Positions 7,890 through 16,547 of a stretch of 50,201 nucleotides of DNA are shown in pieces. How positions within the stretch are numbered: the stretch's first letter is position 1; the number at the start of each line of letters is the position of its first letter. The notes below the pieces were generated by a model. That model did no database searches. It had not been told where the DNA came from and was given only the letters and a program-made list of their open reading frames with translations. The stretch comes from a virus. Made by a program: the position numbers and the translations under genes. The stretch covers positions 1 through 50,201 of IMG/VR virus record IMGVR_UViG_3300037153_000173; one strand, given 5' to 3'.

Positions 7890-8768
7890 TCAGCGGACCC
7901 AACCAGCCGTCGGATCGGCCATCCATTCTCGGACCTCGATCTGGTCGAACCGCTCCTCATCGACCCGGCCGCGGATCGTACAGCCCCGGTCAAACTCCGC
8001 CGTGAATGGACACCGGCCCATTGCGAAGCAGACTGGCCGGAACAGCGGGCTCGCGGCGATGTATTCAAACTGCCACCCACTCCCCCAGCCATCTACATCC
8101 TGAGACTGACCGGGAATGTGTGGCGGCCGGTAGTCTGCGAGAGCCTTGATGATCTGGGCTCCGACTAGCCGCCACTCAAACTGCGCCTGTGTACAGAGCC
8201 GGTTGCCCAGGTGCTCGATCAGGTTCCGGAGGTTGGTCTTGTAGTTCAGCCGGGTCAAGGTGTCGTGAGGCAGGAGTCCTCTTGCCTCCTCCGCCGGGAC
8301 GCCGTTAGCGATCAGCCACTGATACGCCTGCCAGATCGCCTCGATCCCCTTGGACCAGACTTCCTGTGTCTGGCGATTCGCGCTAATGATCGGTCCGCCT
8401 CTCGCCGCGATCTGGTCCTTGACCGCGAAGCGCATCGACTCCTGAGCGTACACGGCCGTCCGCTGGCGAACCATCTGATGTGTGAACGCCCGGGTGACGT
8501 TCTCGACCATGAAGTGAAGGTCAACAGCCTCCAACGGAGCCTTGAGATGGGTTGCGTTAGCCTGTTCCCACGCCCACGTTCGGTCCTCGTCCGTTAGCTC
8601 GCTCAAACTGCGAATCACCCGTCCCTTGTACATGTACACGAATGCCGCTATGGCCCCTAGCGGGTCCGGCGTCGCGGAGAGCAGCGTCACCTGGGGGAAC
8701 CCCTGGCCCACCGCCGGTTCCGCCGGGTACATCGCCTTGTCCACGTATGTGCTGACTTTGTTGTCCAT
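7890..8768 (-). CDS. thyX: flavin-dependent thymidylate synthase ThyX
   Basis: A 292-aa enzyme that methylates dUMP to dTMP with FAD and methylenetetrahydrofolate. The ThyX signature is RQRTAVYAQESMRF (101-114), a variant of RHRxxSxxxxSxR with the first Ser replaced by Val-Tyr. It is followed by the conserved C-terminal YKTNLRNLIEHLGNRL and RLVGAQI segments. The N-terminal PLGAIAAFVYMY resembles family members. ATG 8768 has an AAGGGGA site. The upstream zinc/HTH frame runs 212 bases into this gene. Phage ThyX supplies dTMP for replication; with MazG- and Nmad1-like genes nearby it may also feed a modified-nucleotide pathway (inference). Confidence 0.9.
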   Translation of the reverse strand: MDNKVSTYVDKAMYPAEPAVGQGFPQVTLLSATPDPLGAIAAFVYMYKGRVIRSLSELTDEDRTWAWEQANATHLKAPLEAVDLHFMVENVTRAFTHQMVRQRTAVYAQESMRFAVKDQIAARGGPIISANRQTQEVWSKGIEAIWQAYQWLIANGVPAEEARGLLPHDTLTRLNYKTNLRNLIEHLGNRLCTQAQFEWRLVGAQIIKALADYRPPHIPGQSQDVDGWGSGWQFEYIAASPLFRPVCFAMGRCPFTAEFDRGCTIRGRVDEERFDQIEVREWMADPTAGWVR

Positions 8769-12200: not shown

Positions 12201-12512
12201 GCAGCCGAACAGCGGCTTGATGCCCGCCTGCTCCGCCGCCAACTCGAACTTGACATGGGAGTCGATGTTGCCATGCTCGGTGAGGGAGAGAGCCCCCATC
12301 CCCAACTCCGCCGCCCGGCGGACGTGAGCCTCAGGCATCCCGTAGCCGTCCAGGTAGCTCAGCGTGGAGTGGTGATGTAGCGAGACAAACTTCATCGGCT
12401 TGATGTTCCCGTTCACGTGTCCTCGCGTACGCATTGCGAGTCCCGCGGACGAATGTTCACCGCCGACCTTCACTTCATGGGCCGCGAAGTCACCCAGTCT
12501 GGCTGGACTCAT
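9237..12512 (-). CDS. DNA polymerase III alpha subunit (DnaE-type)
   Basis: A 1091-aa replicative C-family polymerase. The N-terminal PHP domain begins at FVSLHHHSTLSYLDGYG (~43-58). The catalytic Asp cluster is PDIDLDF (~455-461) and a later KMDFLGLN (~617); the GPARGSAAAS loop lies before it. Tandem helix-hairpin-helix signals INGIGPKTAA and LKGFGPKTAEKI are near the end. It is slightly shorter than cellular DnaE at the C-terminus, so clamp-binding and tau-binding parts may be reduced. ATG 12512 follows GAGGAGAACCACA; M40 would be an alternative if the first 39 residues are not conserved. It is the core of the replication block with thyX, primase-helicase and SSB. Confidence 0.95.
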   Translation of the reverse strand: MSPARLGDFAAHEVKVGGEHSSAGLAMRTRGHVNGNIKPMKFVSLHHHSTLSYLDGYGMPEAHVRRAAELGMGALSLTEHGNIDSHVKFELAAEQAGIKPLFGCEVYMPVGRFWRRDGTETQRKHHLTLIAKDAEGYANLLALVTGAWHHFYYEPTVTWEQLCLRRAGLLVLSGCQGSLLSCATVGGKGIPQERASYARGLRIAQLFRETFGSNYLIEVQAFPELEATRRFNALAGRLARAIGSRLAATLDCHYTMLEEAEVQQILHNLRPGEKRTLEEQAREWGYNVPLCPPPNDATVYRKLRATGLSKEEAVEAIVTTEEIAQECSARLPRLPMVRYPLPAGEGDTVRYWRALLKAGWRARGLHRLPDEEKERYSAQLRHEMALIEGKDFVDYFLLVAAGVRHIKSLGIPVGPARGSAAASIAAWLLEITEVDPLRREFEGLLRFERFIDVTREDLPDIDLDFPSEARPILRRFYENLMGPGCVNNIGTYIQFKGRNSLDDIARVFRIPKWEVEELKKFLIERSSGDLRASSTIEDTIEQFPQARAVWDRNPDLAKGAWLEGNVKGFGVHAAGLVLSNEPITSVTTVAEREVPKGSGNILQVVALDKPDAERQGLVKMDFLGLNTMSMLWDACKRIGLTAAELYALDLDDPVVYEAFRAGDLTGIFQFEGRATRYVTAGIQPERFSELMDCIALCRPGPLHNGAAREYAEIKAGLREPERVHPAYDAITKPTQYQMVYQEQILQVAREIGGFPPAGVAEIRKIIALKKGEQKFQARREEFLAGAERVMPVELADRIWGNMVTSGAYAFNAAHCAAYALISYYTQWFKQHHTNVFYAASLTEASSDPERTRNLLRDANKHGIRVRRPSLAKSEEGWTPVGRHGGIRAGFRAINGIGPKTAAVVTEWARSRHPTSWDQIVELKGFGPKTAEKIKAWLADEDPFNAFLLDRNIALSREWLESGSDGMGLPVPTHTATDLAAESLVGKAVRCVWLGTFLKLNIRDIFEQNRARGIELDPAKLKDPHLREWALLTGEDDTDQLLITVDRWRFPVYRDHIMEFNTGSDLLLVEATKPARSAVRKLNVKRLWVVTP

Positions 12513-12681
12513 TGTGGTTCTCCTCGACTAGGTTGGCCCCCATGAACCGTCCGTCAATCCCGGACGGGAACCCCTCGATCAGGACGGCCGTGACCGGCTG
12601 CTCGCCCAACAGTCCCTGCAGCCGGGACACGCCGTCCTCCGTTATGTATGCATCGATCAGCAGTCTGATCCTCATCGTCAT
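12490..12681 (-). CDS. small hypothetical protein before polymerase
   Basis: A 63-aa protein (MTMRIRLLIDAYITED...), start coupled by an ATGA overlap to the upstream gene, and 3' end overlapping the polymerase start by 23 bases. It has an alternating hydrophobic pattern suggesting a small alpha/beta fold. No family recognised. The tight overlaps make it likely to be translated. Confidence 0.6.
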   Translation of the reverse strand: MTMRIRLLIDAYITEDGVSRLQGLLGEQPVTAVLIEGFPSGIDGRFMGANLVEENHNESSQTG

Positions 12682-13013
12682 GTCCACCACTCTCCATCTC
12701 GTGTCGTCTCGCCCTCGATTGCCCTGACCAGGAAGGCAGCGAAATTGATCAGGTCAATCGCGTCATCAACAGGACCGGGACCGTATGGAATCCCGCCGGG
12801 CCACATCGCGTCCCAGAGCCGGTCGGATCGCTCGCGGATACGAACAACCACACCCTTCCAGCCGCTCCTCCGCCAGTTGTCCTGATACTGCTCGTTGCGC
12901 TCCGCGTAGAGGTCCAGAGCCCGGAGCAGGATCGCCGCCTGTCGGGTGACGTCTGCTCGACCGTGGTAGCCCATCACACGGACGCACCGCCGGACTTTGG
13001 AGTCAGTCAACAT
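12678..13013 (-). CDS. Nmad1/DUF1599-like nucleotide-associated protein
   Basis: A 111-aa all-helical protein with RNEQYQDNWRRSGWKGVVVRIRERSDRLWD and a late VDDAIDLINFAAFLVRA. This Y-x-D-W / RI-x-x-x-x-RL / D-x-x-D-x-x-N-y pattern fits the DUF1599 (Nmad1) family, related to MazG-type pyrophosphohydrolases and found in phages with modified nucleotides. ATG 13013 overlaps the end of the VOC-like gene by 11 bases. It sits between redox/phosphatase-type enzymes and the polymerase, consistent with acting on a nucleotide pool. The family assignment is by eye. Confidence 0.6.
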   Translation of the reverse strand: MLTDSKVRRCVRVMGYHGRADVTRQAAILLRALDLYAERNEQYQDNWRRSGWKGVVVRIRERSDRLWDAMWPGGIPYGPGPVDDAIDLINFAAFLVRAIEGETTRDGEWWT

Positions 13014-13338
13014 ACGGCCGGACCTCGACCCGGAGCCCGAATGCCTCCAACCAGATACGGCCGGAGCCGGAGTCGCGAGCGCACCAATCGCTCTCCCGGA
13101 GCCCGTCATAGACCTCCTGAGCGACCTCGACACAGAAGTGGCCTAGCCCCATTTCTACGGCGTTGCGCCCCACCAGGTGGACGTAGATGTGGTCGGCACT
13201 ACGGAACCAGCGGAGAGGCCACTCAGCGGGCTCTCGGGGCGTGACCTCGCGGAACCCCAGCACCAGCATGAACTGTTTGATGCGTGGATCGCGAATCTCA
13301 TCCGCCGCGACCTCGTATGTCAAGTGCGCGAAGCTCAT
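13003..13338 (-). CDS. VOC (glyoxalase)-fold-like protein
   Basis: A 111-aa protein with HLTYEVAADE, then FMLVLGFREVTP, a GHFCVEV strand and a terminal IWLEAFGLRVEVRPYV. This order of strands and the length resemble a single-module VOC/glyoxalase protein, which can bind metals or small ligands. Metal ligands cannot be assigned with confidence. ATG 13338 follows the SDR stop by a few bases, so the two are co-translated. It could alternatively be an unrelated small alpha/beta protein. Confidence 0.5.
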   Translation of the reverse strand: MSFAHLTYEVAADEIRDPRIKQFMLVLGFREVTPREPAEWPLRWFRSADHIYVHLVGRNAVEMGLGHFCVEVAQEVYDGLRESDWCARDSGSGRIWLEAFGLRVEVRPYVD

Positions 13339-13340
13339 GA

Positions 13341-14018
13341 CTACCTGCTTCCACCGTACAGGTTGATCCCAGAGCCCGCCGTCCATTTGGCGGCCGGTTC
13401 GGAGAGCAGCCAGAACACGACCTCTGCGACCTCGCCCGGCGTTAGATGGTCGTTCATCTTCAAGTCCTTGCGCTGGTACTGCTCCGCCTCTGCCCGGGTG
13501 AACCCACGGGCTCTCAGCCCCTTCAGGACCTCCTGGCCCATGGGCGTATCGGGAACGTGGTAGGGGTGAACAGTGTGAAAGTAGAACCCGCTCGCGGTCA
13601 ACTCCCAGGCGAGTTCCCGGACCGCCGCCGCGAGCCCCGCCTTGGCTGCGCAGTACGCCGCTCCGTGCGTCAGTGCGTGATCGTGGGCATACGAGCCAAT
13701 TAGGACCACGCTCCCGCCTAGTCCGCCCCTGTCCTGGACGTACGCCTTGGCTGCCATGAGCGGGAGTGTTAGACAGGCTCGTATCACTTCTGCGATGTCG
13801 TCCTCGTCCGCGTCCTGAAAGGGCACCATTCGGGTAGCGCCCAGCGTGACGACCATCGCATCGTGGTCCAGGAACCGGAGGTTGGGGATTCGATACACCC
13901 CATCCTCATCCCGACAGTCACTCGTTCTCACTCCCCACCCGTTGTGACTCAACTCGTCCCTCACTGCTGATCCGATGTTCTCCTGCTCCTCGCTCGCTCC
14001 AAGCACTACCGCATTCAT
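13341..14018 (-). CDS. short-chain dehydrogenase/reductase
   Basis: A 225-aa SDR-family oxidoreductase. The N-terminus VVLGASEEQENIG is a variant of the TGxxxGIG dinucleotide loop, GSYAHD supplies S109 and YCAAK gives Y122 and K126, the catalytic triad. The C-terminal LSEPAAKWTAGSGINLYGG is typical of the family. ATG 14018 has a good GAGGAGA site. It overlaps the upstream HAD gene by 101 bases. The substrate is unknown; the neighbourhood (FAD enzyme, HAD, VOC-like, Nmad1-like) suggests a small-molecule or nucleotide pathway. Confidence 0.8.
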   Translation of the reverse strand: MNAVVLGASEEQENIGSAVRDELSHNGWGVRTSDCRDEDGVYRIPNLRFLDHDAMVVTLGATRMVPFQDADEDDIAEVIRACLTLPLMAAKAYVQDRGGLGGSVVLIGSYAHDHALTHGAAYCAAKAGLAAAVRELAWELTASGFYFHTVHPYHVPDTPMGQEVLKGLRARGFTRAEAEQYQRKDLKMNDHLTPGEVAEVVFWLLSEPAAKWTAGSGINLYGGSR

Positions 14019-14658
14019 TGTGTCTCCTCATCAGGTCTAGTAGTCCATCAGCCGCGTCACTGAGATGGTCATACTCCATTCCATCCCACAAGGTGTCCTC
14101 GTTGTACTGCGTTCGCCGGAGGACCGGTGTGCCCAACCGCTCGATCTGAGCTTGTTCCAGCACCCACGGCAGATCATCGAGGACCGCCACGACTCGCCGT
14201 GGGTCGATCCGCCGGGCTAGCTCCATCATCTTGTTCTCCCCGAACAACAGCCCATCGAACTCGATGTGGTTACGCCGGGTCCATTCAACCGTGTCCGGGT
14301 CGATCCGGTCATACCGGTCGTGAGGGCGAGTCGTGGTCAGCCAGACCTCTGCTCCGGCGGACCGGAGCCGATTCACGAGCGGAGCCGCGTACGGGTAGGT
14401 GCCCATCGTCCGCTTGAGACCGCCCTGTCTGTACGCCAGCTTGATCGCCCGGAACGTCGAGAGGTCGATGTTGTACACGTCGCACATCCACTCGCGGAAC
14501 CGCGGCTGACCGGTGTACCCCTCGCGACCAAGCGGCTCGTACCCCAACCAGCTGCTCGCGAACTCGATGAACCGCGGGTGATAGGGGGCCAGGGTGCCGT
14601 CGATGTCGATGGCGACCACCGGCTTTATGGGCTCTGAGCATCTTGAGCACAGCATCAT
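13918..14658 (-). CDS. HAD-superfamily hydrolase
   Basis: A 246-aa protein starting with a CSRC pair, then the HAD motif I AIDIDGTLAP (D18, D20). WLTTTRPHDRYD supplies motif II (Thr) and VVAVLDDLPW motif III/IV acids. This is the pattern of phosphatases or polynucleotide kinase 3'-phosphatase relatives. ATG 14658 overlaps the FAD gene stop (ATGA); a second ATG lies one codon later. The C-terminal ~33 residues overlap the SDR gene and are not needed for the fold. Substrate unknown. Confidence 0.75.
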   Translation of the reverse strand: MMLCSRCSEPIKPVVAIDIDGTLAPYHPRFIEFASSWLGYEPLGREGYTGQPRFREWMCDVYNIDLSTFRAIKLAYRQGGLKRTMGTYPYAAPLVNRLRSAGAEVWLTTTRPHDRYDRIDPDTVEWTRRNHIEFDGLLFGENKMMELARRIDPRRVVAVLDDLPWVLEQAQIERLGTPVLRRTQYNEDTLWDGMEYDHLSDAADGLLDLMRRHNECGSAWSERGAGEHRISSEGRVESQRVGSENE

Positions 14659-15407
14659 GTAACGTTCTCCATCAACTCCTCCACACGTTGATATGACTGG
14701 TGTAGCAGGACTCCCGGCTTCCAGGTCCCGAACCTGCCGTTGCGCATGATCTTGGGATGGCAGTCGCAGTCCGTCTGCGTCACCTTGTAGCCCTTCCTGG
14801 ACCCACACTTTTGGTCGGGAGCTTGCGCATACTCCGTGACTCGGTAGCCGAACAGGTCCTGCGCCCGGTACCACTTGTCCTGCTCCAGCCCGTTGTACAC
14901 CACGTTGTTCTCGCGGACCTCCGCCGGTGCTCCTTCAACGAGCCAGATGTCCGCCGACTCAAAGTGGTGACCGCCCTCGCACAGCGCCCACGCCGGAGCC
15001 GTATTGATCACAAGGGGGTACTTCCTCACCAGGTCCCTGGCCACTCCCGCATTGACTCGCACCCTCTGAACACGGTCCCCATACCGTCCCCACAGCGCGG
15101 CGTACGCGGGTGCGAGAGCCCACGCCGGGCGGAGCCCTACCTCATAGCGGTCCCAGGAGGTCGAGCGGACCTCTCCATACACCTTCCGCGAGTACATCTC
15201 ACCGGTGCCGACCTTCTGGAAGATCAGGTAAGCATCCGGGAGCCGGTGGGTGATCCCCGGGATGGCGTCATGGAGGAATACTCCTTGGGCCATTGGAGAC
15301 TGAACCGGCTGTTCGGAGAGGATGTCCACCCGGAGCCCTGCTCGCTCGACTGCGTGAGCAGAGAGGAGTCCGGCCGGTCCACAGCCGATCACGGCTACGT
15401 CAGCCAT
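14655..15407 (-). CDS. FAD/NAD(P)-binding oxidoreductase
   Basis: A 250-aa protein opening with a Rossmann loop VAVIGCGPAGLLSAHAVERAG (residues ~4-24) and a later VINTAP, as in FAD-dependent oxidoreductases. The C-terminal part has QKCGSR and TDCDCHP cysteines that may form a metal site or redox pair. It is shorter than most FAD monooxygenases. It overlaps the upstream 95-aa gene by 8 bases and the HAD gene by 4. Such genes are uncommon in phages. The reaction is unknown; modification of a nucleobase, or detoxification, are both possible. Confidence 0.7.
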   Translation of the reverse strand: MADVAVIGCGPAGLLSAHAVERAGLRVDILSEQPVQSPMAQGVFLHDAIPGITHRLPDAYLIFQKVGTGEMYSRKVYGEVRSTSWDRYEVGLRPAWALAPAYAALWGRYGDRVQRVRVNAGVARDLVRKYPLVINTAPAWALCEGGHHFESADIWLVEGAPAEVRENNVVYNGLEQDKWYRAQDLFGYRVTEYAQAPDQKCGSRKGYKVTQTDCDCHPKIMRNGRFGTWKPGVLLHQSYQRVEELMENVT

Positions 15408-15687
15408 CGTCGCTCTCCATGTAGCCCAGGAACCGGTGTAGCTCGTTGCGGGCTACCCGGATCGCCCTCGCGTACCGTTTGGGCTCGACCTCCGCCTCAC
15501 CACTCCGGTACTCCGTCACCAGGTTGTGGAAACGGGGACCAGCGCTAAACACCCACTCAACCTCCTCCTTGTTTGTGGCTGGGTCCTCGATGACCTCCAT
15601 GGTCATGTGCCGCATCCCCTTCATCATCAGGAACGCGGCCAGCGGGAGGTCGCCTGTTCTGAATACTTCCTCAGTGTGTTCCGTCAT
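15400..15687 (-). CDS. hypothetical protein before FAD enzyme
   Basis: A 95-aa protein with a Met-rich stretch (AFLMMKGMRHMTMEV) followed by VEWVFSAGPRFHNLV and a basic helical end. The N-terminal region resembles short DUF5659-type phage proteins, but I cannot confirm this. ATG 15687 follows GGGAGAATGAG. It opens the enzyme block downstream of a strong hairpin. Confidence 0.6.
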   Translation of the reverse strand: MTEHTEEVFRTGDLPLAAFLMMKGMRHMTMEVIEDPATNKEEVEWVFSAGPRFHNLVTEYRSGEAEVEPKRYARAIRVARNELHRFLGYMESDDG

Positions 15688-15749: not shown

Positions 15750-16547
15750 CTAGAACGGCTCGCCGCTGTCGTCCTTCCGGAGCCGCTGGACCAGGACCGC
15801 TCGTGCCCCATTGGTGGGCAGTTCACGCTCCTTCAACTCCGCCTTCAGCTCAGCAACGGACAGACCGTCATAGTTGTCGTCCGGCTCCGCCTGCTCCTCG
15901 TCCTCGTCCTCCTCGTCCTCGTCCTCCTCCTCGTCCTCGTCTGGTTCCTCCTCGTCCTCAGGCATCGCCTCGACGATGGCCGCCCGGATGTCATCATCTG
16001 ACATCGACTTCTTGACGGAGATGTCCAACTCCTCGTCCTTGATGAACTTCTTGAGTTCAGTCCGGTTAAGGCTGTCGAGGTCCACGCCCTCGTCCTCCTC
16101 GTCCTCGCCCGCCTCGTCCTCGTCCGGCTCCTCCGCCTCGTCCGGCTGCTCGACCTTCATGAGCTTGGCGATCCGCGGCCGGTAGTCACCGTCCTGGTCG
16201 GTGTCGGACTTGAGCCGGGCGAGCACCTTCATGCCCTCTGCCTTGTCGGTGTCGAGGGTGCCCTTGGGCGGGAGCCCTAGCGACAGGAAGAACGCCTTGG
16301 TGCGAGCTTGAACGAACGGGGAGTCATGCTCCAGCAGGGGGTACTCCCAGATGGGTGCGTACTCCTCCTTGAGCCGGTGGCCCTGAGTGTCGTGGGTGGG
16401 CCTGAACCGGACCTCCAACATTGCGTTCCCGTTGGAGGACGGCTTGGGACCGTCGATGTCCTCGACCGTCAGGATGTACGTCCCAACGGGAGCATGGTTG
16501 TCACTGACATCCGAGAACTGCGTTACGTCATACTTCACCTTTGGCAT
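15750..16547 (-). CDS. SSB-like protein with SAP-type C-terminal domains
   Basis: A 265-aa protein. Residues 1-~130 (VKYDVTQFSDVSDNHAPVGTY, MLEVRFRPTHDTQG, FFLSLGLPPKG) resemble DUF669-type phage single-strand-binding proteins that accompany Sak4/RecA-like recombinases. Then come a long Asp/Glu tract, a helical LNRTELKKFIKDEELDI segment, a second acidic tract (~197-222), and a SAP-like LSVAELKAELKERELPTNG...RL. Two DNA-binding mini-domains on acidic tethers are unusual for an SSB. It lies directly downstream of the Sak4-like gene with a GAGGAG site in the junction. Confidence 0.65.
   Translation of the reverse strand: MPKVKYDVTQFSDVSDNHAPVGTYILTVEDIDGPKPSSNGNAMLEVRFRPTHDTQGHRLKEEYAPIWEYPLLEHDSPFVQARTKAFFLSLGLPPKGTLDTDKAEGMKVLARLKSDTDQDGDYRPRIAKLMKVEQPDEAEEPDEDEAGEDEEDEGVDLDSLNRTELKKFIKDEELDISVKKSMSDDDIRAAIVEAMPEDEEEPDEDEEEDEDEEDEDEEQAEPDDNYDGLSVAELKAELKERELPTNGARAVLVQRLRKDDSGEPF

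Follow-up and report, generated by a model that had tools for sequence, protein, structure and literature searches.

The subject of this analysis is a run of five genes in the IMG/VR virus record IMGVR_UViG_3300037153_000173, the complete sequence of which (50,201 bp) is referred to here as the window. The genes encode a flavoprotein, a HAD phosphatase, an SDR, a VOC/glyoxalase-like protein and a helical protein resembling Nmad1; the gene for a DnaE-type DNA polymerase lies downstream, and a ThyX homologue follows DnaE. It was found that the flavoprotein, the HAD, the Nmad1-like protein, ThyX and DnaE constitute a conserved core, to which SDR and VOC are added as an optional pair, a division that had been missed in the preliminary description of this DNA. 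With somewhat better than even confidence, we consider the block, together with ThyX and DnaE, to be a pathway to a modified pyrimidine deoxynucleotide (probably a derivative of T) that is incorporated by the phage polymerase and makes the DNA a poor substrate for restriction.

Megablast of the window region against phages gave no match, and neither did a scan of viral contigs with the single flavoprotein sequence. When viral contigs were scanned with an alignment of flavoproteins, 80 metagenomic loci were obtained, all of which were fetched; with seven named phages, they made up the 87 loci subjected to profile searches. Loci with at least 4.5 kb of downstream sequence were treated as informative (n = 67). 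The flavoprotein and DnaE were present in 67/67 of these, the HAD in 66, the Nmad1-like protein in 56, the SDR in 30 and a VOC of the Ajin58 type in nine. One contig, L009, is 78% identical and carries all five genes in the same order, with 73–90% identity. Since this order is kept in L009, and since flavoprotein, HAD and DnaE are linked in 66/67 informative loci, the block is more than a chance arrangement. Annotated neighbourhoods showed the flavoprotein with further block genes and DnaE, and ThyX downstream, in named phages whose hosts belong to six actinobacterial genera (Microbacterium Ajin, Streptomyces Yara, Gordonia Xenia2, Mycobacterium Hawkeye and Onyinye, Nocardia P3.1 and Arthrobacter Wollypog); Ajin has the exact five-gene order of the window.

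Relatives of the flavoprotein occur in 120 sequenced phages, all with actinobacterial hosts and all below 60% identity. Among 84,980 bacterial and archaeal species genomes no relative was found, the search (44 pattern matches) having used one conserved peptide that distant relatives could escape; therefore, an origin in host metabolism is unsupported. The same genes in the same region have been annotated in actinophage clusters AE, BN, D, DG, DV and EF as oxidoreductase, phosphatase, FabG-like and ThyX, but they were not united as a system or linked to Nmad1, VOC, proteobacterial phages or a function (PMC11385102). In the paper on Xenia2, the oxidoreductase, phosphatase and FabG-like genes are tabulated by cluster distribution and no pathway is given; FabG is placed under 'DNA modification', a broad class that also includes helicase and polymerase (PMC11385102).

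The search with ThyX led to the PB1-like phages of Pseudomonas and the Wifcevirus phages of Escherichia coli, and a homologous set was found in approximately 350 proteobacterial phages. The genes of coliphage F13 run flavoprotein (gp87), ThyX (gp85), a HAD-Nmad1 fusion (gp84), SDR (gp83), VOC (gp82), an exonuclease and DnaE; gp83 matched our SDR profile at 8e-48, and the VOC match of gp82 was 1e-30. By annotation and alignment, the F13-type order was seen also in Bas99, Pantoea Kyle, Serratia MyoSmar and Xanthomonas Carpasina, and no SDR or VOC was found in the block region of PB1. The two flavoprotein types, 1 and 2, show homology that runs the length of the protein (HHalign E 6.4e-11 over 241 columns), and the HADs of the actinophage type and of the proteobacterial phages are homologous to each other (HHalign 7e-10); the Nmad1 link between the two sets is less strong (HHalign 7e-4, profile search 2.4e-5). 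Counts for flavoprotein, HAD-Nmad1 fusion and ThyX were 291/292/290 in Pseudomonas, 27/27/27 in Escherichia and 9/9/9 in Serratia phages. The existence of this fusion in phages of E. coli and Pseudomonas is a separate line of evidence for joint action of HAD and Nmad1. Thus the genes co-occur in very distant phages, whereas the preliminary description would have taken the lack of such co-occurrence as partly refuting its reading. In Cronobacter phage Ss1 (L114, 10561–11241) the HAD is fused to DUF3310 and not to Nmad1; DUF3310 may have the same role.

The ThyX homologue, announced in the preliminary description as lying further down, was located at 7890–8768 on the minus strand (PF02511, 3e-29). 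PF02511 was present in 35/36 block-bearing genomes, the single miss being a 19.6-kb fragment. In contrast, PF00303, the family of thymidylate synthase (TS) and the hydroxymethylases, was found in 0/36 block genomes and 0/8 proteobacterial carriers (0/44), while the positive controls matched in 9/14 cases. The numbers of phage records with block-type ThyX (Gordonia 46, Microbacterium 36, Mycobacterium 26, Streptomyces 9) equal those for the flavoprotein, an agreement by organism name and not record by record. The canonical RHR(x)7S signature is absent from the window protein, where VRQR replaces RHR. Among the block-linked ThyX sequences examined (37, of which 35 were distinct), every one has R[Q,S,T,N]R in place of RHR. 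RHR is retained in the three viral ThyX proteins used for comparison (Thermus P23-45, Staphylococcus MVC and Acidianus ARV1), which were picked from the match list and compared at the level of the ThyX sequence. The altered motif suggests that the chemistry of the enzyme may have changed.

A phenotype with which the block may be connected has been published. The Wifcevirus isolates Bas98–101 are insensitive to every restriction–modification (RM) system tested other than EcoP1_I, a protection for which no mechanism is known, and also to almost all other defences tested (PMC11990801). The flavoproteins of Bas98 and Bas101 are 98.8% and 97.6% identical to that of F13, and Bas99 has the whole block. 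In the Bas99 record (PQ850618) EcoRI sites number 19 against 19.1 expected, and EcoRV sites are strongly depleted (4 against 19.1 expected). Avoidance of sites could account for resistance to EcoRV, but not to EcoRI, which is presumably part of the BASEL panel. In the same record (L116–L118), CAGCAG is over-represented (70 against 28 expected). With regard to the base, DNA of the PB1-like phage JG024 is cut by SacII, which has a G/C-only site (PMC3008698), and Wifcevirus is able to grow on a host in which McrA, McrBC and Mrr are active. These two observations argue against fully modified C or G; along with the absence of PF00303, they also disfavour hydroxymethylation of cytosine.

The flavoprotein (14655–15407, 250 residues), the most constant gene of the block, shows a clear Rossmann fold for flavin adenine dinucleotide (phrog_8720, 2e-41). 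Its model (pLDDT 96.6) has a GR2 fold resembling UDP-galactopyranose mutase (UGM), as the top PDB matches were UGMs (Foldseek 8e-9; Z 14.4 over 242 residues). Hydroxylases were nearly as good (Z up to 13.2), and NGTO, the glycinyl-thymidine lyase of PaMx11, was among the matches at Foldseek rank 48. Although the fold is alike, UGMs have 360–510 residues, the identity is 8–17%, and other flavoproteins score almost as high. The model thus points to a small GR2-type flavoprotein, the fold of which does not reveal the substrate. Searches of PDB sequences with the flavoprotein, HAD and Nmad1 gave nothing informative past the Rossmann N terminus.

The HAD (13918–14658; phrog_415, 2.7e-13) contains all four superfamily motifs (DIDGT, TTTR, K and DD), each position being conserved in the family alignment, and its homologue in Hawkeye matched PF06941 above the cut-off (2.4e-10). 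On its motifs and homologues it is a HAD superfamily phosphatase of the NT5C/PNKP type. The next protein (13341–14018) is FabG-like, matches PF13561 at 7e-17 and has YxxxK, with the catalytic Y and K invariant in the alignment; judged by sequence, its identity as an SDR is certain. The VOC-like protein (13003–13338), directly after the SDR, had no Pfam match in the window and was assigned by position and inspection. Its copy in L009 is 81% identical, VOC proteins occupy the same position in Ajin, F13 and Bas99, and Ajin58-type VOC genes lie directly behind the SDR gene in 11/11 cases, as in the window. Positional homologues gave weak matches to Glyoxalase_4 (PF13669), at 0.0025 for F13 gp82 and 0.019, both below the cut-off.

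The Nmad1-like protein (12678–13013) was assigned by a family profile (4.6e-27 after iteration). DUF1599 (PF07659) bears the Pfam name 'nucleotide modification associated domain 1'; it did not match the window protein, but was matched by 9/36 family members (best 1.6e-6) and exceeded the curated cut-off in 2/27 genomes. The model (pLDDT 86) is a four-helix protein closest to the uncharacterised AF_0060 (Z 9.9), followed by MazG/dCTPase folds (Z approximately 5.5), and Foldseek gave E values of 1.2 or worse. No conserved ExxE motif of the MazG type was found, and assignment as a pyrophosphatase was not adopted.

Two groups of known systems were compared with the block. Thymidine hypermodification derived from 5-hydroxymethyldeoxyuridine (5-hmdU), as in phages M6, PaMx11, ViI and W-14, likewise combines, close to the polymerase, a phage TS-like enzyme with nucleotide enzymes and a flavoenzyme, and NGTO of PaMx11 is related in fold to the block flavoprotein. 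These pathways begin from a TS-type hydroxymethylase of deoxyuridine monophosphate (dUMP), whereas the block genomes have ThyX and lack PF00303. Neither a 5-hmdU DNA kinase nor an aGPT-PPlase transferase was seen among the scanned window proteins, no profile search aimed at these two enzymes having been made. The deoxyuridine (dU)-DNA phages (PBS1, DSS3_VP1 and PhiR1-37) resemble the block in the NT5C-like HAD of PBS1, a proven phosphatase of thymidine monophosphate (dTMP), and in deoxycytidine triphosphate (dCTP) deaminase; no counterparts of the flavoprotein, SDR, VOC and Nmad1 have been described in these phages (PMC12697855). In one subgroup of our loci (e.g., L020, L021, L023, L047, L062 and L074), the block region also contains genes for uracil-DNA glycosylase (in 17 loci) and dCTP deaminase (in 11 loci); dCTP deaminase was not found in the window region. 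The combination that defines dU-DNA (dCTP deaminase with degradation of dTMP/dTTP and no net incorporation of thymidylate) was not found, and full uracil DNA is a poor fit because ThyX is kept and the glycosylase is present.

The chemistry that we infer would begin with substitution of dUMP at C5 by the altered ThyX. Oxidation, reduction or rearrangement of the new substituent might follow, by the UGM-like flavoenzyme and, where these are present, by the SDR and then the VOC, while the HAD nucleotidase, together with the helical Nmad1-like protein, could remove a canonical nucleotide that competes, or could process an intermediate. The modified nucleotide, made before replication, would then be polymerised by DnaE. 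That this amounts to a new route of hypermodification, in which a repurposed ThyX makes a committed C5-modified dUMP for elaboration by flavoenzyme, SDR and VOC, and which is common to approximately 480 sequenced phages with actinobacterial or proteobacterial hosts and explains the resistance of Wifcevirus, is a more tentative proposal that we would sooner doubt than assert. If it is true, a family of DNA modifications has been overlooked in hundreds of sequenced phages, including Pseudomonas phages (Pbunavirus) that see wide use in personalised therapy and well-studied mycobacteriophages, and ThyX joins the enzyme families that initiate modification of DNA bases. A published and unexplained phenotype would also be tied to specific genes, testable in derivatives of E. 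coli K-12.

Several points weigh against a modified DNA base. Our literature search found no nucleoside analysis of block-carrying phages and no direct evidence of modified DNA. Block phages have had their genomes sequenced from ordinary libraries (e.g., PMC11385102), and EcoP1_I still strongly restricts Wifcevirus (PMC11990801). The resistance of Wifcevirus could come from another gene, e.g., one for an anti-restriction protein, and replication may be all that ThyX and DnaE serve. The flavoprotein has a general fold, and the resemblance of the Nmad1-like protein to MazG folds is weak and, for a helical protein, only suggestive. The preliminary description had put forward an undescribed pathway for a modified nucleotide or DNA, with detoxification or host metabolism as the alternative. 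The former is favoured, though not proved, because of the co-occurrence in distant phages, the HAD-Nmad1 fusion, the linkage to ThyX and polymerase, and the restriction-resistant coliphages among the carriers; linkage to DnaE and ThyX disfavours detoxification.

The main rival to a modified nucleotide is ordinary supply of dTMP, with ThyX making the normal nucleotide for the phage polymerase, the flavoprotein as its redox partner, HAD, Nmad1 and SDR tuning the pools, and unmodified DNA. The joint presence of ThyX and flavoprotein in 35/36 genomes, the dCTP deaminase genes and the constant position of DnaE downstream all fit this explanation; a phosphatase of deoxynucleoside monophosphates would oppose it, and ThyX is not known to require a separate flavoprotein reductase. 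It also gives no account of the change in the ThyX motif, of the SDR and VOC, or of why Wifcevirus resists restriction; we regard it as unlikely. Less likely still is an anti-defence role through free nucleotides, in which a soluble nucleotide (an immune signal, or a shield against defences that deplete deoxynucleoside triphosphates), and not a base of DNA, is what the block produces or degrades. Such a role would accord with the insensitivity of Wifcevirus beyond RM and with the finding of Nmad domains in bacterial defence systems that are predicted or have been validated (PMC13092281), but a soluble nucleotide is not expected to give resistance to restriction enzymes, and the tight linkage to the polymerase suggests DNA synthesis.

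We give very little credence to a role in repair or end processing, in which the HAD would assist the replisome as a DNA 3′-phosphatase of the polynucleotide kinase type and the remaining genes would be passengers. The coliphage and PB1 fusions do match the HAD_PNKP family of Pfam (5e-8 and 3e-10) and are annotated as polynucleotide kinase, and genes for uracil-DNA glycosylase and pyrimidine dimer glycosylase are nearby in some loci. However, the fusions scanned have no kinase domain, the flavoprotein, which is the most constant neighbour, has no evident role in repair, and the succession of SDR and VOC in all the Ajin58-type loci and in coliphages is not that of random passengers.

All genes of the block are on the minus strand of the window. 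In the order of transcription, a gene for a 95-residue DUF5659-like protein (15400–15687; PF18903, 2.3e-5) precedes the flavoprotein, HAD, SDR, VOC and Nmad1-like genes, and a gene for a 66-residue protein (12490–12690; L009 copy 59% identical) lies between the block and DnaE (9237 to approximately 12395; PF07733, 8.4e-54), all on the same strand. Coordinates and overlaps bear out the earlier claim of five enzyme-like genes in one coupled run before the polymerase: the run looks translationally coupled, because starts and stops overlap or almost touch. The flavoprotein stop overlaps the HAD start (ATGA), the SDR starts inside the HAD gene, and the Nmad1-like gene overlaps the VOC gene by 11 bp. 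The HAD/SDR overlap of 101 bp (13918–14018, in different frames) is unusually long and is conserved in L009 (7399–7499). An 8-bp overlap joins the flavoprotein gene to that for the DUF5659-like protein, which is a candidate neighbour of the block; L009 has an open reading frame with the same kind of end. The earlier coordinates and gene calls were correct overall, apart from over-long starts and one label. The listed start of the VOC-like reading frame, 13386, is too far upstream, the listed GTG start of the Nmad1-like gene at 13133 is probably too long, and the DnaE frame as listed reaches 12512. The label 'SSB' for 15750–16547 was not supported, as Pfam gave no SSB match there; a SAP domain alone was matched, along with a long acidic stretch.

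Some further features of the loci may be recorded. In L056, L057, L060, L070, L071 and L072, a PP-loop/asparagine-synthase-like gene lies between the flavoprotein and the HAD, possibly for an additional decorating step. The record IMGVR_UViG_3300046533_000294 (129,757 bp; L011 and L018) carries two copies of the block, perhaps from two joined phages or a duplication, and the flavoprotein of each is 36% identical to that of the window. In the window itself, a collagen-like repeat protein (1185–1784; PF01391, 1e-21) adjoins the gene for an amidase endolysin.

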